The translations under genes and the position numbers were made by a program. Below are positions 401 to 9,575 of a DNA stretch of 64,000 nt, one piece after another. The notes below the pieces were generated by a model, which had not been told where the DNA came from, did no database searches, and saw only the letters and a program-made list of their open reading frames with translations. Numbering within the stretch: the first letter of the stretch is position 1; every line of letters begins with the position of its first letter. The DNA comes from Methylocella tundrae (GTDB taxonomy: Bacteria; Pseudomonadota; Alphaproteobacteria; Rhizobiales; Beijerinckiaceae), in NCBI RefSeq assembly GCF_038024855.1, contig NZ_CP139089.1, positions 3,747,501 through 3,811,500 of the forward strand, in the 5' to 3' direction.

Positions 401-2749
401 TCAGAAGGTCATTTTGGCGGTGAGGACGGCCGATCGCCCCGGCCCCGGCGTCGCCGAGCCGTAGCCTGAAATCGTCTCGAAGTTTTTCGTGTCGGCGATA
501 TTGTAAATGTTCGCCTGCACCGAGAAATGTTCGTCGATTTTATATGATCCGAACAGGTCGAAGCGCCAGTAACCCGGGACCCACCCGGTGTTGGCGGAAT
601 TGGTGTAGCGCGAGTCGACGAAATAGGCGCTGGCGCCGGCGGTTAACGCGGCGGTGATGGCGTAGCTGCTTGTCACTGTAAAGGTGTTGCGCGGCACGTT
701 GGGAAGCTTATTGCCGGGAGGCGAGATGAAGGCGCCGGCGGCTGTCGTTCCGCTGGCGAGCACCCTGCCGTCCATATAGGTGTAGCCGCCGAAAATGCTC
801 CAGGCGTCGGTGATCTTGCCGGCGACGCCGATCTCGCCGCCCTGAACCCGCGTTTTGCCGATCTGCGCATAAAGGCCCGCCGCGGCGTTGACGGTTTCGA
901 CGGCGTTTTCCTGCGTCACCTGAAACAGAGCGCCTGTCAGGCTAAGGCGGCTTTCGAGCAAGTCGATCTTGGCGCCAAGCTCCATGTTTTGATTGGTGGT
1001 CGGTTGCAGGTTCTGCTGGCCGCCCGAGAGGGTCAAAAACTCGCTCGAAGGGTCGAAGGACGTTCCATAGACGTAATAGATGCTGGCGTTCGGGACCGGA
1101 TGGAACACGCCGCCGGCGCGCCAGCTCAGAAAATTCGTGTCACTGTTTATGTTGTAGGGGGTCGCCGCATTGACTTGCGAGATGAAGACCTTGCTGCCGG
1201 TGTTCACCGTCCCGTAATTCTGCCAGATTTTGAAATCGTCGAAACGCAGGCCTCCGAGAACTTCAAAATATGGACCGATCTTGACCTGATCATTCGCGTA
1301 GACGCCGATCGTTCGACCGAGGGAGTATTGATCTGTGCTGGTCGGATTGGGGTAGCCGGGATTGACCGGGTAGGGATTGGGTTCGCCGATGTTGACGCGA
1401 TCGCCGCCGATGATGTTGGTGCGATATTGATCCCGCGTCTCCTGCGACAGTTCGAGGCCGGCGAGGATCGTATGGCGCAGGAAGCCTGTATCGAAATGCC
1501 CGACGAGATCGCTTTGATTGGTGAGCAGCGAATTTTGTGTGTGGTTCTGAAAATCATTCGTATTTTGATAGTAAAGACTGTCGAGCGGGAAATTGAACAA
1601 TTGGGCGCTGGTCAGCGCGCTGCCGCCGACGGCGGTTGCATATGGAACGCCGGTGTTGGTTTGCACGCCGCGGATGCGGACGAAGCGGTCGACGTAGGAA
1701 TAGCGCGTGACGTTGCTGCCCTGCCAATCGGCGTTGAAGTCATGTTCGATGCGGGCGGTGACGATGTTGACGCTGACTTTTTCGGCGTCGGAAAAGCCGC
1801 TGCTCAATCGGCCATAATAAGTGTTGGCGGCGACCGGCGCCGGCTTGCCGTAGGGCGTGCCGAAATAGGCCGCCGGCAGAAGGGGAATGCCGTAATCGGG
1901 GATATTGTCGTCCCGCTGATAGACGTAGCTGAGCGTGACCCGCGTGTCCTGGGTCATGTTCATCGTGATCGAAGGCGCGACGCCGATGCGCTTCGTATTG
2001 ATATGGTCGCGACCGGCGACATCGGTGTCGTTGCCGAGCAGAATGATGCGCGCGGCCGTATCGGCGAATGTGCGGTTGATGTCGGCGGTGACGCGGGCGC
2101 CGGGAGCCGTGTAGCCCGACATTTCGACGGTCGTGAAATTCGTGAAGACCGGCAGCTTGCTCGTCATGTTGATGACGCCGCCGGTTGAGCCGCGGCCGAA
2201 CAGGAATGACGCCGGGCCCTTTAGCACCTCTATTTCCTGGATGCTGAATGTGTCGCGCGTGTACCAGCCTGGATCGCGCACGCCGTCGCGGTAGAAATCA
2301 TTGCGCGCCGTATAGCCGTGGATCGAGACATTATCACCCTGCGTGCCGCCCTCGCCGCCAAAGAAGGTGACGCCCGGCACATTGTGCAGCGCCTCGACCA
2401 CGGTGGAATCCTTCTGGTCCTGAATGAGCTGCTGCGGGACGACGGTGATGCTTTGCGGGGTGTCGAGGATCGGCGTCGCAATGCGCTTCAGGCCGAGCGT
2501 GCGCGGATTGTAATCGGAGCCGCCGCCCTGGCCCTGGCCGCTCACGTCGACCTGTTCAAGCGCAATCGGGTCTCCCTCCGGGGCTGCGGCGTCCTGCGCG
2601 AACGCCGCGTCCGCGAGCATGACTGAAGCAAGGCTGACGGCGGCGTGCGCGATGGGCCGCCGCGCCTTGGCTAGAATGAATCCAGAAGTAGAACTGGATT
2701 GGGGCTTGCGCTGGGAGCCGGATAATTCAGATACAGGCCCTGTGATCAT
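401..2749 (-). CDS. TonB-dependent siderophore receptor (Fiu/FhuE type)
   Basis: A 782-residue outer-membrane gated channel that imports a ferric chelate using TonB energy. The N-terminal leader is long and ends near A-F-A-Q (about residue 51). A TonB-box-like stretch IALEQVDVSG follows at about 62-71, then the plug domain (about 90-210) with TPQSITVVP, the VEVLKGP-type motif (EVLKGPASFLFG) and RGSTGGVINM, then a 22-strand-type barrel ending in Phe (AKMTF). The start is placed at 2749 because GGGAG lies 8 nt upstream; an in-frame ATG at 2764 would sit on that ribosome site. It diverges from the PepSY-piuC-exbBD-tonB genes, and an Irr-like palindrome lies 24 bp upstream. The substrate cannot be read from sequence; iron is the default, another metallophore is possible. 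Confidence 0.93.
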   Translation of the reverse strand: MITGPVSELSGSQRKPQSSSTSGFILAKARRPIAHAAVSLASVMLADAAFAQDAAAPEGDPIALEQVDVSGQGQGGGSDYNPRTLGLKRIATPILDTPQSITVVPQQLIQDQKDSTVVEALHNVPGVTFFGGEGGTQGDNVSIHGYTARNDFYRDGVRDPGWYTRDTFSIQEIEVLKGPASFLFGRGSTGGVINMTSKLPVFTNFTTVEMSGYTAPGARVTADINRTFADTAARIILLGNDTDVAGRDHINTKRIGVAPSITMNMTQDTRVTLSYVYQRDDNIPDYGIPLLPAAYFGTPYGKPAPVAANTYYGRLSSGFSDAEKVSVNIVTARIEHDFNADWQGSNVTRYSYVDRFVRIRGVQTNTGVPYATAVGGSALTSAQLFNFPLDSLYYQNTNDFQNHTQNSLLTNQSDLVGHFDTGFLRHTILAGLELSQETRDQYRTNIIGGDRVNIGEPNPYPVNPGYPNPTSTDQYSLGRTIGVYANDQVKIGPYFEVLGGLRFDDFKIWQNYGTVNTGSKVFISQVNAATPYNINSDTNFLSWRAGGVFHPVPNASIYYVYGTSFDPSSEFLTLSGGQQNLQPTTNQNMELGAKIDLLESRLSLTGALFQVTQENAVETVNAAAGLYAQIGKTRVQGGEIGVAGKITDAWSIFGGYTYMDGRVLASGTTAAGAFISPPGNKLPNVPRNTFTVTSSYAITAALTAGASAYFVDSRYTNSANTGWVPGYWRFDLFGSYKIDEHFSVQANIYNIADTKNFETISGYGSATPGPGRSAVLTAKMTF

Positions 2750-2772
2750 GATGAAGACTCCCATATATCTAG

Positions 2773-2789
2773 TTTAGATTTGATCTAAT
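2773..2789. promoter_or_regulatory. Irr (ICE)-box-like palindrome 1, receptor side
   Basis: TTTAGATTTGATCTAAT is an inverted repeat (TTAGA / TCTAA around TTTGA). Against the rhizobial Irr consensus as I recall it, TTTAGAA-N3-TTCTAAA, 11 of 14 defined bases match. It lies 24 bp upstream of the receptor start (2749) in an AT-rich stretch (2765-2900) that contrasts with the GC-rich surroundings. Irr controls iron genes in Hyphomicrobiales, which fits a siderophore receptor. The consensus is from memory and no scan was run. Confidence 0.55.
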
Positions 2790-2855: not shown

Positions 2856-2872
2856 ATTAGAACAATTGTAAA
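2856..2872. promoter_or_regulatory. Irr (ICE)-box-like palindrome 2 plus -10 box, PepSY operon side
   Basis: ATTAGAACAATTGTAAA matches 12 of 14 defined bases of the remembered Irr consensus TTTAGAA-N3-TTCTAAA. A consensus -10 hexamer TATAAT lies at 2895-2900, 49 bp before the PepSY start at 2949, so the palindrome would cover or abut the -35 region. No good -35 hexamer is visible at 17 bp, which is common for activated or tightly controlled promoters. Binding here would control the whole plus-strand PepSY-piuC-exbB-exbD-tonB set. Confidence 0.55.
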
Positions 2873-2948: not shown

Positions 2949-4094
2949 ATGGTTCGTCCATTTCTCAGCCGGTCGATATGGCGCCGGATCCATCTCTGGC
3001 TTGGTTTTGGATTGGCCTTTCTGATGGTTCCGATCGGCCTTACCGGCGTCGTCCTCGTTTTTGCGCCGGAGGTGGATCGCTGGGTCTTTCCGTCCCGCTA
3101 CGCGGTGACGGGCGCAGTGGCGGGTCAGCCGGCCGGCGTCTATCTCGGCAGCGCGGCGGCGGCCGCTTCAGGCGCGCGCGTCATGGTCCTGCGCTGGCCT
3201 CGGATGGAGGGGGCGCCTGTCACCGTTCTGCTGCGCGGCGGCGCTTTTGCCGATCAGGCGCGCCTCGCCTATCTCGATCCGCCGACCGGCCGCGTTCTCG
3301 ACATCGCCGATCTCCGCGGGGGGCTCATTGGCCTCGCGCATGCGCTGCACGCCAATCTGATGCTTCCCCCTTCCTTCGGGAGGCAGATTGTCGGCTGGGC
3401 AGGCGCCGCGCTTCTGACGATGGTGCTGACAGGCCTCTGGCTCTGGCGCCGGCCGTCTGTCGGCTTTCTCCGGCTGCTGCGCTGGCGGCGCGGTCCAGCG
3501 CTGAGTTCAAACCTCCATCATATGATGGGCTTCTGGATCGCCGCGCCTTTGGGGGCGATGGCGCTTACCGGCGTCACGCTCGGCTTTCCGGTGGCGACGC
3601 GCGCGACGATCAGCCTTTTCGCCGAGGTCGCGCCACAGGCGCCGCGTCCGGCCTCCGGCGGCTCGATGCGCCAGCCTTTGCAGGATCCGCAGCGCGTGGT
3701 GGATCTCGCGATGCAGACCGGCGAAGGATTGAAGCCGGTCTCGCTGACGCCGCCGACGCTTCAAGGAAAATTCTGGCGCGTGACGGCGGCGACGCGGACC
3801 GGCGCGACGCAGACCGTGCTCGTCGATGACGCATCCGGGGCCGTCACCGTTCAGGCCATCGCGGCGGGCGACGGGCTCCTCGCTTTGCTGCGGCGCATTC
3901 ATGAGGGCCGATCGCATGGCCCGGTCTGGAGCTTGATCGTCGTCGTTTGCGGCTTTGCGCCGACGCTGTTTTTTGCGACCGGGCTTTTGATGTGGCTGTG
4001 TCGCCGCCAGTCGACAACGCAAGCCCTGCTTTCCGCGCAGAAGGGCGCGCGGCGCGCCGCGTCCGACCTCTCCTCCCTCGAACCACGAGGCTGA
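2949..4094 (+). CDS. PepSY-associated membrane protein (PiuB-like)
   Basis: A 381-residue inner-membrane protein with about four membrane segments: near 12-35 ([20 protein letters not shown]), 140-162, 190-215 and a C-terminal one ([20 protein letters not shown]). Periplasmic loops between them carry PepSY-type beta structure. Histidines sit at the membrane ends ([30 protein letters not shown]), as in family members thought to carry haem and reduce ferric siderophores. Family members are typically encoded beside TonB receptors and PiuC, as here. The stop codon is 1 nt before the piuC start, so the two are co-transcribed. Reduction of an imported chelate is an inference from family and context. 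Confidence 0.88.
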
Positions 4095-4095
4095 C

Positions 4096-4776
4096 ATGAT
4101 CGTTCACATCGAAAACATTCTCGACAAGGATCAACTTGCGCGCTGTCGTGAGGCGATGCGGCGCGCCGCCTGGGTCGACGGGCGCGTCACGGCGGGTCAC
4201 CAGTCGCGGCAGGTGAAAAACAATCTGCAATTGCCGGAGGGCGGCGCCGAACATCAGGAACTCGGCGTCATGATCATGCGCGCCCTGCATCGTTCCCCTC
4301 TTTTCATCTCGGCGGCGCTGCCGCATACGGTCTTTCCGCCGTTGTTCAACCGCTATGAGAGCGGAATGGGATTTGGGCTTCACGTCGATAACGCCATCCG
4401 GCAATCGGCGGATGGCGGGGTCCGCATCCGCACCGACATATCGGCGACCCTGTTCCTCAGCGACCCGGACGAATATGACGGCGGCGAATTGATTATCGAA
4501 GACACTTACGGCAATCACTCGGTCAAACTTCCGGCCGGCGATCTCATCGTCTATCCCGCCGACAGCCGGCATGAGGTCGCGCCGATTACGCGGGGAGGGC
4601 GCGTCGCATCCTTCTTCTGGATTCAGAGCCTCATTCCCGATAAGACACGGCGCTCCATTCTGTTCGAACTCGACGCCGCGATCATTCAATTGACGCGCGA
4701 CGTCCCGGGAAATCCGGCGCTGGTCTCATTGACTGCGACTTATCATAATTTGCTTCGGCAATGGTCCGAGGTGTAA
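4096..4776 (+). CDS. piuC: Fe(II)/2-oxoglutarate-dependent dioxygenase, PiuC/YbiX family
   Basis: A 226-residue PKHD-type hydroxylase. The facial triad is intact: H96 and D98 (in GLHVDNA) and H159 (SRHEVAP), followed by the 2-oxoglutarate-binding R169 (GGRVASFF). Length and order match YbiX/PiuC. These cytoplasmic enzymes co-occur with catecholate receptors such as Fiu and are thought to process imported siderophore or adjust iron status; the substrate is unknown. The start ATG at 4096 has GAGG 6 nt upstream, inside the end of the PepSY gene. The next gene, exbB, begins 158 bp later with its own ribosome site. Confidence 0.93.
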
Positions 4777-4901
4777 GTTTATCGCCCGCTCTGCAAGGAT
4801 GGCCGGGTCATAGCTTCGCATTGTTATTTGGGAGCCTGCATGATGTGCTGGCTTGGGATGTCCGCCGATCCGACCAGAATTGGGTCATGCGCCTTCAACC
4901 G

Positions 4902-4936
4902 GGAATTATTCTATACTCTGGGAGGAATTATTCTAT
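4902..4936 (+). repeat. 13-bp direct repeat spanning the exbB ribosome site
   Basis: GGAATTATTCTAT occurs at 4902-4914 and again at 4924-4936, a period of 22 bp (two helical turns). The second copy starts within the ribosome site GGAGG (4921-4925) and ends inside the exbB start codon region (ATGATG at 4935-4940). TATACT at 4912-4917 resembles a -10 box but would place transcription start on the ribosome site. It may be an operator pair or a recent small duplication; the sequence alone does not decide. Confidence 0.5.
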
Positions 4937-5951
4937 GATGTCGGCCGAAAATAACATGAGGCTTAGATCAGCAGCTTGGCCCTCCATTGATCGTTCCCGC
5001 AAGGTTCTCGCAGCGGCGGCCCTGACTTTAGGCCTGTGCGCAGGATCGGCGCTGGCGCAAACGCCGGCCGGGACGATCGATCCCGCGGTGGCCGTTCCTG
5101 CTCCAACCGCGGAGTCTGCGCCTTCGGCCGCCGCGGCGGTGGAATCCCCCCAAGGCGCGAAGGCGGCCGGCGAATCCGTCAGGCTTGCGCCCCCTGCCGA
5201 TGCATCTTTGCCGTCGGCCCTGCCGAACGATCTCTCGCCATGGGGCATGTTCCTCCACGCTAATTTGATCGTGAAGCTGGTCATGTCGGGGCTCGCCTTT
5301 GCTTCGCTCGTCACCTGGACGATCTGGCTGGCGAAAACCCTCGAGCTCTGGACCGCCCAGCGATCAGCGCATCGCGACCTCAAGACGCTCGCCAGCGCCG
5401 CGAGCCTTTCCGCTGCCGAGGCATCCTTCGCAGAGTCCGCCACTCCGGTCGCCCGGTTCGTTCGCGCCGCGGTTGGCGAAGAGGAGCGTTCAAACGGTCT
5501 GCCGGCCGAAGGCGTGAAAGAGCGCGTCGCGGCCTTGCTGTCGCGTCTTGAAGCCCATGCCGGGCGCAAGATGGCGCGCGGCACGGCGATCATCGCGACG
5601 ATCGGTTCGACCGCGCCTTTCGTCGGACTCTTCGGCACGGTCTGGGGCATCATGGACAGCTTCATCGGCATATCAAAGACACACACCACCAATCTCGCCG
5701 TGGTCGCGCCCGGCATCGCCGAAGCCTTGCTCGCAACCGCGACCGGACTTGTCGCCGCCATCCCCGCCGTGATGATTTACAATGGCTTTGCGCGCGCCAT
5801 CACGGGCTACAAGGCGCGGCTCGGCGACGCCTCGGCGGAGGTTCTCCGCCATGTGTCCCGCGATCTCGACCGCCGCGACGCCGACCGGACGCCCGCCGCG
5901 CCCGCAAAGGATGAGGCGCATGTAATCGCCATGCGCCGTTCGGCGGAGTAA
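4935..5951 (+). CDS. exbB: TonB-system energiser ExbB
   Basis: A 338-residue inner-membrane proton-channel subunit of the TonB motor. A signal-peptide-like leader (to about residue 42, ending in A-L-A-Q) and an Ala/Pro-rich stretch precede the MotA/TolQ/ExbB channel domain. Three membrane segments are visible: FASLVTWTIWLAK, the motif region GSTAPFVGLFGTVWGIMDSF, and GIAEALLATATGLVAAIPA. The long N-terminal extension is typical of the alphaproteobacterial ExbB subtype. GGAGG at 4921-4925 selects the start at 4935 over an upstream in-frame ATG at 4761 that overlaps piuC. exbD follows after 4 nt. Confidence 0.95.
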   Translation: MMSAENNMRLRSAAWPSIDRSRKVLAAAALTLGLCAGSALAQTPAGTIDPAVAVPAPTAESAPSAAAAVESPQGAKAAGESVRLAPPADASLPSALPNDLSPWGMFLHANLIVKLVMSGLAFASLVTWTIWLAKTLELWTAQRSAHRDLKTLASAASLSAAEASFAESATPVARFVRAAVGEEERSNGLPAEGVKERVAALLSRLEAHAGRKMARGTAIIATIGSTAPFVGLFGTVWGIMDSFIGISKTHTTNLAVVAPGIAEALLATATGLVAAIPAVMIYNGFARAITGYKARLGDASAEVLRHVSRDLDRRDADRTPAAPAKDEAHVIAMRRSAE

Positions 5952-5955
5952 GCCG

Positions 5956-6411
5956 ATGGCTGTGCGGCTGTCCTCCAGCGACGATGATCTCGAGATCAAT
6001 CACGAGATCAATGTCACGCCTTTTATCGACGTCATCCTCGTCCTTTTGATCATTTTCATGGTCGCCGCGCCGCTGTCGACAGTGGACGTCAATGTCGATC
6101 TGCCGGCCTCCACGGCCGAACCTGCGCAGCGGCCGGACAAGCCTCCGTTTCTGACGATCAAGCCCGATCTGTCGCTCGCGCTCGGGGAAGACCCCGTGAC
6201 GCGGGACGGGCTCGCCGCCGCGCTCGATGCGCAGACGAAGAGCGATAAGGACAGCCGCGTATTCGTGCGCGCCGACAAGAGCGTCTCTTACGGCGACGTG
6301 ATGGGGGCTATGAATCTTCTTCGGGCCGCGGGTTATCTGAAGATCGGGCTCGTCGGCCTCGAGGCTGATTCGGCCGCGCCTTCTGACGCAAAACCAGCGG
6401 GCGCCCATTGA
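5956..6411 (+). CDS. exbD: TonB-system energiser ExbD
   Basis: A 151-residue protein with one N-terminal membrane segment (VTPFIDVILVLLIIFMVAAP) and a periplasmic domain that contacts TonB. D25 in the motif NVTPFIDV is the protonatable residue required for proton-motive function. Length and motif match ExbD/TolR. Its stop TGA shares one base with the tonB start ATG (TGATG at 6409-6413), implying translational coupling. Confidence 0.95.
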   Translation: MAVRLSSSDDDLEINHEINVTPFIDVILVLLIIFMVAAPLSTVDVNVDLPASTAEPAQRPDKPPFLTIKPDLSLALGEDPVTRDGLAAALDAQTKSDKDSRVFVRADKSVSYGDVMGAMNLLRAAGYLKIGLVGLEADSAAPSDAKPAGAH

Positions 6412-7283
6412 TGACGATGCACGTTCATCTCGTTTTGCCGCCGGATGAGAAACCCTCCCGCTGGCGTTGGACTCTCGCGGCGGCGGTGATCGTTCTTGTT
6501 CATGCGGGCCTGTTTTACTGGCTGAGCCGGAGGTTCGAGACGCCGGACCTTGGCGGGACGCCGGAATCCGCGATTCTGATCGAGCTTCCGCCGATGGGGG
6601 TGGCGCAGCCGGCGCCCGTGGCGGAAGTCCCGCCGGGGCCGGAAATGAAGGAGGCGGAGCCGGAGCCGACGCCGGAGCCCCAACCCGAGGCGGCCGAGCC
6701 GCCGCCGGCGCCGCCGGTTCCTGATCTTGCCCCCGCGCCAAAGGCCGACGCGGTGCTGGTTGCGCCGGACAAGCCGGAGCCAAAGCCCATCGTCGAGCCA
6801 AAGCCCAAGGCCGAACCGAAGCCGAAGGTCGAGGCCAAGCCCAAAGTCGAAGCAAAGCCCAAGAAGAAAATAACCGAGGAGCGTCCAAAGCCGGAGACGA
6901 AGCGGGAGCCGGGGCCTCGCGCCGCGCGCACCAGCGCGCCCGCCCGCCAGAGCGCCGGCGCCCCAGGCCAGGCCTCGCAAGGGGCCGCGGGCTCGACCAT
7001 GTCGGCCGGCGCGTGGCGCAGTCTCGTCTCGGCGCAACTCAATCGCAACAAACGCTATCCGCCCTCGGCGCAGGGCGCGAGCGGGGCGGCGACGATCAGT
7101 TTTTCCATCGACCGATCGGGGCGCCTTGTTTCGGCGAGCCTCGTGCGGAGTTCTGGCTCATCCGCCCTAGACTCGGAGGCGGTGGCGATTGCCCATCGCG
7201 CCAGCCCCTTTCCGCCGCCGCCGGCCGACGTTTCCGGGAGCCGCATCACGCTGACCGTGCCGGTCAATTTCCGTCAGCAATGA
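6411..7283 (+). CDS. tonB: Energy transducer TonB
   Basis: A 290-residue protein that carries energy from ExbBD to outer-membrane receptors. One membrane segment lies near the N terminus (LAAAVIVLVHAGLFYWL), then a periplasm-spanning Pro/Glu/Lys region at about 60-175 with many EPKPK repeats, then a C-terminal TonB domain (about 195-290) with YPPSAQ, VSASLVRSSG and FPPPP motifs. The ATG at 6411 is preferred; a TTG at 6408 is also in frame. Linkage to the receptor, exbB and exbD makes this a dedicated TonB system. Confidence 0.94.
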   Translation: MTMHVHLVLPPDEKPSRWRWTLAAAVIVLVHAGLFYWLSRRFETPDLGGTPESAILIELPPMGVAQPAPVAEVPPGPEMKEAEPEPTPEPQPEAAEPPPAPPVPDLAPAPKADAVLVAPDKPEPKPIVEPKPKAEPKPKVEAKPKVEAKPKKKITEERPKPETKREPGPRAARTSAPARQSAGAPGQASQGAAGSTMSAGAWRSLVSAQLNRNKRYPPSAQGASGAATISFSIDRSGRLVSASLVRSSGSSALDSEAVAIAHRASPFPPPPADVSGSRITLTVPVNFRQQ

Positions 7284-7390
7284 CGGGATTGGCTCAATCT
7301 GCGCGTTGCTATAGTCTCTGATACGAGGCTGACCCTCGGCTGAAGGCGGTGTCGATCCTGCCTGAATGCATCGTAAACGGAGTATTAAGA

Positions 7391-7807
7391 ATGCTGGATA
7401 AGAGCTCGATTTTGGCAAAAATCTCCTGCTGCGGTCTGTTGGCGGCTGTGCTTGTCCTGCATTCGGCGCCGGCTGCATTGGCCGCCTCCGATGTGGTGTC
7501 GAAATATGACAAGGATAGCGACAAAACCCTCGATCTCGCCGAGGTGAAGAGCGCTGCGGGCGCGCAATTCGACAAACTGAACAAGGATTCCGACGACACG
7601 CTGGACAGCAAGGAAGTCAAAAGGGTGATCGGCAAGAAAGAGTTCAAGGCGGCGGACCCCGACAATGACGGGACGCTGAGCAAGGACGAATATCTCGCCA
7701 TCGTCGAAGATCTGTTCAAGAAGGCGGACGTCGATAATGAAGGCACGCTCGACGCCAAGGAACTGAAATCAAAGGCCGGGCGCGCCCTGAAGCGCCTCAT
7801 CGACTAG
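7391..7807 (+). CDS. Lanmodulin-type four-EF-hand secreted protein
   Basis: A 138-residue protein with a signal peptide (cleavage near residue 31, A-A-L-A-A) and four EF loops at 40-51 (DKDSDKTLDLAE), 64-75 (NKDSDDTLDSKE), 89-100 (DPDNDGTLSKDE) and 113-124 (DVDNEGTLDAKE). Inter-loop spacings of 12, 13 and 12 residues equal those of Methylorubrum LanM, and the protein aligns with it end to end without gaps, as recalled. LanM features present: Thr7 in all loops, Asp at position 9 in three loops, and Pro at position 2, but only in EF3. LanM binds lanthanides with very high affinity in the periplasm of methylotrophs. Metal preference of this divergent form is unknown. GGAG lies 8 nt upstream of ATG 7391. 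It follows tonB by 107 bp. Confidence 0.82.
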   Translation: MLDKSSILAKISCCGLLAAVLVLHSAPAALAASDVVSKYDKDSDKTLDLAEVKSAAGAQFDKLNKDSDDTLDSKEVKRVIGKKEFKAADPDNDGTLSKDEYLAIVEDLFKKADVDNEGTLDAKELKSKAGRALKRLID

Positions 7808-7824
7808 TTGGGCCGCCAATTTGT

Positions 7825-7848
7825 CCAGACGGCGTTCACGCCGTCTGG
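7825..7848 (+). terminator. Hairpin terminator after the lanmodulin homologue
   Basis: CCAGACGGCG (7825-7834), loop TTCA, CGCCGTCTGG (7839-7848): a perfect 10-bp stem with a tetraloop, 17 bp after the stop codon. There is no T run after it, so termination may be Rho-assisted or the hairpin may protect the 3' end. Confidence 0.6.
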
Positions 7849-7938
7849 CTCCGTCTCTCCAGATTGTCGCGTTGATCAGAGCAAAGGCCTGCAGCCCCGG
7901 CGCGCGCTCTGGATGTTGTCCATTTGTTCTCAATTTTT

Positions 7939-8196
7939 TCATTTACAGACGTTGAACGTGTGATAGCCCATAAAATGGCCGTGTGCGTCAACGACCGGTC
8001 GGCTCGCCAAAGCGCAGCGGCTGTCGCCCGCGGGATTTGGATATCCTTCATTCTCCTGGGTGAGAATGGTCGCCCACCTCCTGCCATCAGTGGGGATAAT
8101 GCCGAAAGCCATGGCGTGCGGGGACGCTGCAGCGAAGGCGAGTTCAATCATGGCGACGGCGAAGCCGCCAGTGGTGATTTTGCGCAATCCAATCAT
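7939..8196 (-). CDS. Small secreted protein of unknown function
   Basis: An 85-residue protein, not recognised. It has an N-terminal hydrophobic leader (MIGLRKITTGGFAVAMIELAFAAA split around a Lys/Arg start) and a likely cleavage near A-M-A-F. The mature part is about 60 residues with two Cys, several His/Gly (DAHGHFMGYH) and an aromatic end (FNVCK). The start at 8196 is supported by GGAG 7 nt upstream; the frame stays open further up without a better start. It converges on the lanmodulin gene, across the hairpin at 7825. Coding status is likely, function open. Confidence 0.55.
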   Translation of the reverse strand: MIGLRKITTGGFAVAMIELAFAAASPHAMAFGIIPTDGRRWATILTQENEGYPNPAGDSRCALASRPVVDAHGHFMGYHTFNVCK

Positions 8197-8618
8197 AATT
8201 TTTCTCCTGTTCGCGACTCGCTTGAACACGGCAAAAAGGCGCGTGATTTCGGCGAGTTGGCATTTTTGGGCTATGGCCGAGAACACTAGTGCTGATCGGG
8301 ATGGGTTGGTTCCATCCGTTTCATGACCAATAGATAGGGCGGGAAATCCAATCTGTATAATTCATTGTTCTTCTGAAATTGATCGATTAATTGAATGATT
8401 TCCCGGGCGGCGCTGGCCGGTGTCGCTGACTTCGCGCCGGCGCGGAGCCGTCTTCCTCAAGCGGCAGCTCTCGCGGCGATCAGCGCCAGAGAAGAGCTGC
8501 CGTGATGCGCCTTGACAGAAGCCTTCTTTGTGTCTGGCCATTGTCAAACAGGCGATGCGCTCGAAAGAGCCTTGCGATATAAAGCGTCTATTCAAACGCG
8601 TGCGACATCGGAAGGCCC
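8197..8618. other. Intergenic region upstream of tal, with an inverted repeat
   Basis: No gene is supported in these 422 bp. A 9-bp inverted repeat, GGCAGCTCT (8463-8471) and AGAGCTGCC (8493-8501), encloses a 21-nt loop. TTGACA at 8512-8517 is a perfect -35 hexamer without a convincing -10 at 17 bp; TATAAA at 8578-8583, 35 bp before tal, could be a -10 box. The promoter of tal is presumably here. Confidence 0.4.
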
Positions 8619-9575
8619 ATGCCCTCAAAGCTCGATCAACTGAAAGCCATGACCACGGTTGTCGCCGATACCGGCGACATGGAGGCTGTGCGCGCCTTCG
8701 CGCCCGTGGACGCGACCACGAATCCAACCCTTATTCTGAAAGCCGCTCAGCTCGAGGCCTATGCGCCGCTGCTGTCCGAAGCGATCGTCTGGGGACGCAG
8801 CCACAATCATCTGACAAGCGAGGTGGCGGATCGGCTGGCGATCAATTTCGGAGAGGAGCTGACCAAAATCGTTCCGGGCCGGGTCTCGACGGAAGTCGAC
8901 GCGGACCTCTCGTTCGACATAGAAGGCACGGTGGCGAAGGCGCGGGAGATCATCGCCGAATATGAGAGGCGCGGCGTCGGGCGCGAGCGCATCCTCATCA
9001 AGATCGCCGCGACATGGGAGGGCGTCAGGGCGGCCGAGATCCTTCAGGCCGAAGGGATCGACTGCAACATGACCTTGATCTTCTCGCTGGCGCAGGCGGC
9101 CGCGTGCGCCGACGCAGGCGCATTCCTAATCTCGCCTTTCGTCGGCCGCATTCTCGACTGGCACGTCAAGACCGAAGGCAAGACCTATACGGCCGAAACC
9201 GATCCCGGCGTTCTCTCGGTCAAGCAGATTTATGCTTACTACAAAGCCTACGACGTCAAGACCGTCATCATGGGCGCTTCGTTCCGCAACAAGGGCGAGA
9301 TCGAAGCTTTGGCAGGATGCGACCGATTGACCATTTCGCCGCAATTGCTCGACGATCTCGCCAGGGACGACGGCGTCCTGGAGCGTCGCCTAGACCCTGC
9401 GAGCGCGGCTCATCGGGCGTCGGCGCGGCTCAATCTCGATGAGAAAACCTTCCGCTTTCTCTTGAACGAGGATGCTATGGCGACGGAAAAGCTCGCGGAG
9501 GGGATCAGGCTGTTCTCGCGTGATCTGCGGTCATTGCGCGAACTCGTGTCGCAGCGGCTCCTCGCCGTCGCCTGA
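8619..9575 (+). CDS. tal: Transaldolase
   Basis: A 318-residue class I aldolase of the pentose phosphate pathway, transferring a dihydroxyacetone unit between sugar phosphates in the cytoplasm. The Schiff-base lysine is K128 in [12 protein letters not shown]17 (VADTGD) is the catalytic acid, and [10 protein letters not shown] is the substrate-loop signature. Length matches the TalB subfamily (about 316). In methylotrophs it can serve sugar-phosphate rearrangement. It stands alone; a short hairpin (CCTGAGC-CT-GCTCAGG, 9571-9586) overlaps the stop codon. Confidence 0.96.

Follow-up and report, generated by a model that had tools for sequence, protein, structure and literature searches.

Three described lanmodulins (LanMs), members of a family of small periplasmic binders of rare-earth metals, serve here as points of comparison for a lanM paralogue, LanM-2, found at positions 7391..7807 (plus strand) of a 64,000-nucleotide (nt) stretch of Methylocella tundrae DNA (RefSeq GCF_038024855.1, contig NZ_CP139089.1, positions 3,747,501 to 3,811,500; hereafter ‘the window’, whose first letter is position 1). 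The protein from Methylorubrum extorquens AM1 (Mex-LanM; PDB: 6mi5, 8fns) contains four EF loops, spaced by 12/13/12 residues. The proline at loop position 2 (Pro2) is often taken as the hallmark of the family; its replacement by alanine in Mex-LanM leaves affinity for lanthanides (Ln) in place while reducing selectivity over Ca (PMC12603986). Hans-LanM, from Hansschlegelia quercus (PDB: 8dq2, 8fnr), has Pro2 in just one of its four loops (PMC12603986), forms a cluster of its own and binds La at 68 pM (both PMC10232371). The LanM of Methylobacterium aquaticum 22A carries Thr and Lys at position 2 of its first two loops (PMC9260416) and has two Pro2 in total (PMC12603986).

LanM-2 shares with Mex-LanM the number and spacing of loops, the predicted fold and 50–54% identity over the core; it differs in that EF3 alone has Pro2 (position 2 is Lys in EF1 and EF2 and Val in EF4), in Asn1 of EF2, Ser9 of EF3 and Glu5 of EF4, and in its location outside a lut cluster. 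With Hans-LanM it has 40% identity, the one-in-four Pro2 count, the presence of Asn1 loops and the fold (TM-score 0.91) in common, whereas the Hans-LanM proline sits in EF2 and, in our alignment, three of its loops have Glu9 rather than Asp9. The M. aquaticum protein is similar at position 2 of the first two loops, but has the second Pro2 and belongs to a different genus. We put the probability at roughly 85% that LanM-2 is a genuine lanmodulin: a periplasmic buffer or carrier of Ln(III) that would reject Ca(II) less strongly than does Mex-LanM.

The gene, its EF loops and its family

The elements of the gene and its product, for which we computed family, predicted fold, conservation, paralogy and neighbourhood, are as follows.

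7391..7807, plus strand: LanM-2 (lanM paralogue, lanmodulin), 138 amino acids; ATG at 7391, stop codon ending at 7807
7391..7483, plus strand: predicted signal peptide, residues 1–31; read by eye, cleavage site approximate
7508..7543, plus strand: EF1 loop, DKDSDKTLDLAE; Lys2
7580..7615, plus strand: EF2 loop, NKDSDDTLDSKE; Asn1, Lys2
7655..7690, plus strand: EF3 loop, DPDNDGTLSKDE; the sole Pro2 of the protein, Ser9
7727..7762, plus strand: EF4 loop, DVDNEGTLDAKE; Val2, Glu5

A GGAG motif (7379–7382) lies 8 nt 5′ of the ATG; an alternative in-frame GTG start at 7349 is possible, and would give a longer protein. The N-terminus looks Sec-type by eye—a basic start, a hydrophobic core and then APAALA/AS—placing the start of the mature protein at about residue 32 (7484). 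An earlier sequence-only reading had described four EF loops spaced 12/13/12 behind a signal peptide, with Thr7 throughout, Asp9 in EF1, EF2 and EF4, Pro2 and Ser9 in EF3, Asn1 in EF2, Glu5 in EF4 and Pro2 nowhere else; each of these is present as described, the signal peptide on inspection by eye only. The spacing falls within the 12–13 residues that PMC10232371 sets for lanmodulins, and EF3 supplies the one loop with Pro2 that the same source takes as a minimum, in a protein of four EF-hand loops and fewer than 200 residues.

Against NF053806.1, the NCBIfam equivalog model for LanM, the protein scores 151.1 bits (150.5 in the genome search; cut-off 135) with an E-value of 1.7e-44, a match well beyond chance. 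The best relatives in the PDB are themselves lanmodulins, with Mex-LanM at 98.3 bits as compared to 28.8 for the best non-LanM chain. The AlphaFold2 model, a LanM-type three-helix bundle, overlays Mex-LanM (8fns) with a TM-score of 0.94 at 0.8 Å, and calerythrin makes its first appearance at Foldseek rank 24. The homology proposed from sequence thus survives both the overlay and the check that might have favoured calmodulin- or calerythrin-like proteins; profile, PDB, loop, tree and fold comparisons likewise bear out the proposed likeness to LanMs whose loops hold Lys (or Thr) at position 2 instead of proline. The transaldolase model PRK12309 also matches weakly, at 20.9 bits (cut-off 550); we take this model to carry an EF-hand tail.

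In codon comparisons with six relatives, the ratio of non-synonymous to synonymous change (dN/dS) is 0.067–0.22, with dS above 1, and therefore saturated, in five of the six; the pairing with M. tundrae isolate 2 returns 0.82 at a dS of 0.015, a pair too close to inform. An overlapping minus-strand open reading frame (ORF; 7309–7800, 163 amino acids) was judged to arise mechanically on the antisense strand of G+C-rich DNA.

Pro2 across 116 lanmodulins

We compared 116 distinct LanM sequences, drawn from one GTDB family plus 11 named loci—a set that does not cover all LanMs and in which near-identical relatives are counted one by one. Exact duplicates and two gapped sequences (L130, L131) were left out; four places over the cut-off (G218, G111, G298 and G248:C3) and nine places below 66 bits also lie outside the set. 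Nine proteins have no Pro2, 30 have one, 47 two, 11 three and 19 all four; in every one of the 30 with a single Pro2, it is EF3 that carries the residue. Taking the loops separately, Pro2 is present in 30 (EF1), 23 (EF2), 106 (EF3) and 74 (EF4) of the 116.

The tree (116 rows, 104 columns) was rooted at its midpoint only which, together with the small number of columns per row, leaves its deep order uncertain. LanM-2 nests within a clade of eight rows (support 98/90) that also holds M. tundrae isolate 2, Methylocapsa palsarum and five other genus members, all eight belonging to the same GTDB genus or being named Methylocella or Methylocapsa. Four further LanM-2 sequences from the genus group separately (99/93), and L017 is unplaced; the 13 are not one demonstrated clade, and so we group them by synteny and by the side of the tree on which they fall. 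Even here Pro2 varies, with two in L017 and none in L021. In a second tree, built without the Pro2 columns, Pro2 must have changed at least 4, 3, 7 and 8 times in EF1, EF2, EF3 and EF4 respectively; the trait hence changes often.

The suggestion that LanM-2 is ‘early-branching or altered’ is not supported: it is nested within its genus, its arrangement is that of 30 of the 116 LanMs, Pro2 in EF3 is nearly universal, and a LanM with a single Pro2 (Hans-LanM) has already been characterised. In carrying its one Pro2 in EF3, LanM-2 follows a common pattern and is an ordinary lanmodulin.

As a separate observation, the nine LanM-like proteins devoid of Pro2 are L021, L119, L120, L122, L127, L129, L132, L133 and L134; the first four exceed the LanM cut-off and the other five fall below it.

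LanM-1 and the proposed role of LanM-2

The genome holds a second lanmodulin, LanM-1, with Pro2 in all four loops, a spacing of 12/11/12 and 45% identity to LanM-2 over 109 residues. It lies some 3 kb from a WDYA-type (MxaF-like) pyrroloquinoline quinone (PQQ) dehydrogenase. About 5 kb further on there is a TonB-dependent receptor that we call ‘LutH-like’ because it lies close to a WDYD-type dehydrogenase and groups with the receptors found at other LanM loci, and not on the basis of a LutH model. LanM was found in 13 of the 15 genus genomes searched and LanM-2 in all 13 of these, joined by LanM-1 in four of the 15 (G000, G004, G005, G013); M. tundrae isolate 2 gave no LanM-1 match in an assembly of 160 contigs. 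The four LanM-1 copies group with two sequences from genus g34, within the half of the tree on the Methylobacterium side. By eye, insertion-sequence transposases are seen on both sides of the M. tundrae LanM-1 (L029:6837-13363, with LanM-1 at 8959-9363), which may be a mobile or transferred copy.

Four of the seven PQQ dehydrogenase matches in the genome carry WDYD, which we take to mark a Ln-dependent methanol dehydrogenase. The M. tundrae genome paper lists xoxFJG (PMC6522787); on both counts the host encodes the Ln-dependent enzyme that is looked for in the host of a lanmodulin.

In Methylocella silvestris BL2, La supplied during growth on methanol raises the LanM encoded by Msil_0271 39-fold (PMC9291206). 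Genome G004 fits M. silvestris: pairing five of its PQQ dehydrogenases by order with the paper's five locus tags, at approximately 1.08–1.11 kb per tag, would put Msil_0271 near 0.3 Mb; from this we infer that it corresponds to LanM-1 (G004:314227) and not to LanM-2 (G004:903641). Msil_0271 is thus akin to LanM-2 in family and genus, but best matched to the all-Pro2 LanM-1. In the main text of the same paper, passages and a term search gave no mention of the LanM-2 orthologue at G004:903641, and ‘Msil_08’, ‘Msil_07’, ‘ExbB’, ‘ExbD’ and ‘siderophore’ do not occur there.

For LanM-2 we infer metal identity, affinity, role and regulation, as well as export, for which the by-eye reading of the N-terminus is the guide. 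The protein would be exported to the periplasm and fold around lanthanide ions, with EF1–EF3 expected to be strong metal sites and EF4 a weak one. Given Pro2 in a single loop, its affinity for Ln(III) is likely to be high and its rejection of Ca(II) below that of Mex-LanM. There it could buffer, and probably hand on, Ln(III) entering through TonB-dependent receptors, supplying XoxF methanol dehydrogenases whilst keeping free Ln(III) low.

Several points weigh against this assignment. Asn1 of EF2, Ser9 of EF3 and Glu5 of EF4 could each weaken a site; they recur in 11, 30 and 21 of the 116 LanMs respectively, with Glu at the first of these positions in 57 and either Ser or Thr at the second in 66. 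The AlphaFold2 model is metal-free and cannot separate Ln from Ca; in addition, LanM structure 6mi5 (2018) predates AlphaFold2 and may be part of its training data. Finally, the LanM that La strongly induces in M. silvestris is of the LanM-1 type and LanM-2 is absent from the main-text table of regulated proteins in PMC9291206, so that a role for LanM-2 in Ln metabolism is putative.

The TonB-linked neighbourhood and competing explanations

Upstream and downstream of LanM-2, the window contains the following.

401..2764, minus strand: siderophore-type TonB-dependent receptor, nearest to Fiu; TIGR01783, 247.9 bits (cut-off 223.5)
2773..2789, no strand: ICE-like palindrome (resembling an Irr-type iron box); 3 mismatches from the consensus used
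2856..2872, no strand: ICE-like palindrome; 2 mismatches from the same consensus
2949..4094, plus strand: PepSY_TM inner-membrane protein; PF03929, 149.3 bits (cut-off 28.8)
4096..4776, plus strand: PiuC/YbiX-like Fe(II)/2-oxoglutarate (2OG) hydroxylase; NF003975, 350 bits (cut-off 180)
4854..5951, plus strand: exbB; TIGR02797, 303.9 bits (cut-off 206.2); start uncertain, the ORF opening at 4761
5956..6411, plus strand: exbD; TIGR02803, 201 bits (cut-off 152.95)
6408..7283, plus strand: tonB; PF03544 and TIGR01352; ends 107 nt before lanM
7289..7315, plus strand: possible lanM promoter, TTGGCT - 15 - TATAGT; weak, by eye
8619..9575, plus strand: transaldolase gene tal; TIGR00874, 456.2 bits (cut-off 396.2)

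The receptor scores 427 bits against the Fiu model NF007349, under its cut-off of 686, and is divergent from the run of PepSY_TM, PiuC, exbB, exbD and tonB, all on the same strand as lanM. TIGR02797 has two matches in the genome, of which this exbB alone is over the cut-off. Between lanM-2 and tal there is a possible small exported protein of 115 amino acids on the minus strand (7939–8286).

Across the genus, exbB-exbD lies upstream of LanM-2 in nine of 13 genomes (G000, G014, G001, G002, G004, G005, G007, G008, G013), with tonB called in eight of the nine and separated from lanM by 92–277 nt on the same strand in the seven loci measured, a range that spans alternative lanM starts. The pair is missing upstream in G003, G006, G009 and G012; the contigs of G006 and G009 end after 2–3 kb, a length sufficient to exclude an adjacent tonB. 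Beyond exbB-exbD, the receptor-PepSY-PiuC block is present in five of the 13 (G000, G014, G001, G002, G013). Amongst 96 flanked LanM loci, a count that leaves out the window itself and includes some loci cut by contig ends, exbB and exbD are found in nine and the block in five; as the probes were taken from the window, distant homologues such as LutH go uncounted in these figures. Of 97 loci, window included, 39–43 have genes that by eye look like those for a YVTN protein, a substrate-binding protein and an ABC permease, and 34 have another TonB-dependent receptor; this setting matches the lut-type context described for Methylorubrum (PMC9291206). In strain RH AL1, exbB and exbD are lowered with Nd. 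We found no mention of a lanM-tonB linkage in the parts of PMC9291206 and PMC12482762 consulted, the subscription literature lying mostly outside our search.

There is about an even chance that this position carries no function at all, LanM-2 being a free-standing Ln buffer—wholly compatible with its assignment as a lanmodulin—and its place between tonB and tal inherited synteny. The linkage is largely confined to one genus, and tal follows LanM-2 in 12 of the 13 genomes though we know of no functional link between transaldolase and LanM or metals. (A tal gene also follows LanM at L111, in another genus; the M. tundrae tal covers only positions 4–325 of the 392 in PRK12309.) In five other genus members (L032, L033, L036, L038, L040) a promoter-like stretch, from TTTACTTTT to near a varying AAAGATA, was seen by eye directly before lanM, within about 100 nt, and LanM-2 is possibly transcribed from its own promoter; a sigma-70 scan of 7230–8640 of the window returned no site. 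All 5 terminator-like sites near lanM (shuffle mean 1.6) fall on the minus strand, with three lying within lanM itself; they were not used.

What sits less easily with mere synteny is the distribution of the receptor. Of 298 family genomes, 11 have an orthologue (E ≤ 1e-120); in six of the 11 (G000, G014, G013, G001, G002, G082) a LanM is found no more than 9 kb away. In G082, from another genus, the LanM concerned (L082) has all four Pro2, belongs to a LanM-1-like clade phylogenetically separate from LanM-2, and follows the PiuC of the receptor cluster by 401–431 nt; two kinds of LanM therefore adjoin the same receptor cluster, which is suggestive of an independent linkage.

These findings, with the close and co-stranded exbB-exbD-tonB, would suit a LanM-2 that, in addition to being a lanmodulin, is the dedicated periplasmic acceptor of an iron-controlled upstream TonB system, or a scavenger of the Ln co-imported by it; on balance we consider this rather unlikely. 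Linkage is missing in the four genomes named above; receptor and LanM are far apart or on separate contigs in G012, G016 and G021, whilst G011 has the receptor and no LanM. (In G056, the receptor is around 15 kb from a LanM-like gene below the LanM cut-off.) The receptor is, moreover, of an iron-siderophore type, and a separate LutH-like receptor is to be found near LanM-1.

Iron control was considered through scans with a provisional ICE consensus. At up to three mismatches the window has four matches where 0.43 would be expected, and two of the four fall in the receptor/PepSY promoter region; when this region was shuffled by mononucleotide, 0.75% of 2000 trials gave two mismatches or fewer. 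Two ICE-like boxes are present in all six of the receptor/PepSY promoter regions (best with 1–2 mismatches, second with 2–4), two of the six (the window and L039) being from the same species. Genome-wide, however, the pattern is not enriched at up to two mismatches (12 strand matches against 20 for the reversed pattern), and the case therefore rests on position and on the six orthologous regions. In the ~160 nt upstream of lanM, 11 of the 13 LanM-2 loci were scanned and none has a box with two or fewer mismatches; one of the 11 has a box with three. It is possible that the uptake operon is under iron control, with lanM having a separate promoter. A more specific proposal, which we think unlikely, is that LanM-2 accepts siderophore- or catechol-bound lanthanides imported by the Fiu/PiuA-like receptor with PiuC, as part of an Irr/ICE-controlled TonB operon; if true, Methylocella would have two lanthanide routes, LutH/LanM-1 for methanol oxidation and a Fiu-type receptor with LanM-2 for iron stress.

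Very unlikely, in our view, is drift of the paralogue to the point of binding Ca(II) or another metal in place of Ln(III). Pro2 is absent from three of the four loops, calmodulin-type loops commonly have Lys2 (PMC12603986) and the same genome has an all-Pro2 LanM-1; yet the loop carboxylates, Thr7 and the 12/13/12 spacing are conserved, Pro2 is retained in the very loop where it is most conserved, the same Pro2 pattern is found at Methylosinus loci in a lut-type context, and picomolar binding of La is documented for a LanM with a single Pro2, as noted at the outset. A calmodulin- or calerythrin-like Ca(II) protein, to which matches with EF-hand Pfam models might point, can be dismissed, as LanM is far ahead by model, sequence and fold, and the loops of such proteins stand about 25 residues apart.

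For the family, loop-pattern filters may miss LanMs, because among the 116 compared the all-Pro2 form is a minority whilst Pro2 in EF3 is conserved; a recent survey of methanotrophs applied ‘bona fide’ to sequences with the loop pattern of Mex-LanM or Hans-LanM and treated the rest as possible variants of either LanM or calmodulin (PMC12482762). LanM-like proteins devoid of Pro2 would test the need for this residue. What the present locus adds, as leads, are the exbBD-tonB linkage and the two-copy arrangement: in genomes with both copies, nature sets a Mex-like LanM beside a Lys2-type one in the same cell for comparison, and a Lys2-type LanM linked to exbBD-tonB provides a lead on how lanthanides may be handed over after TonB-dependent uptake.
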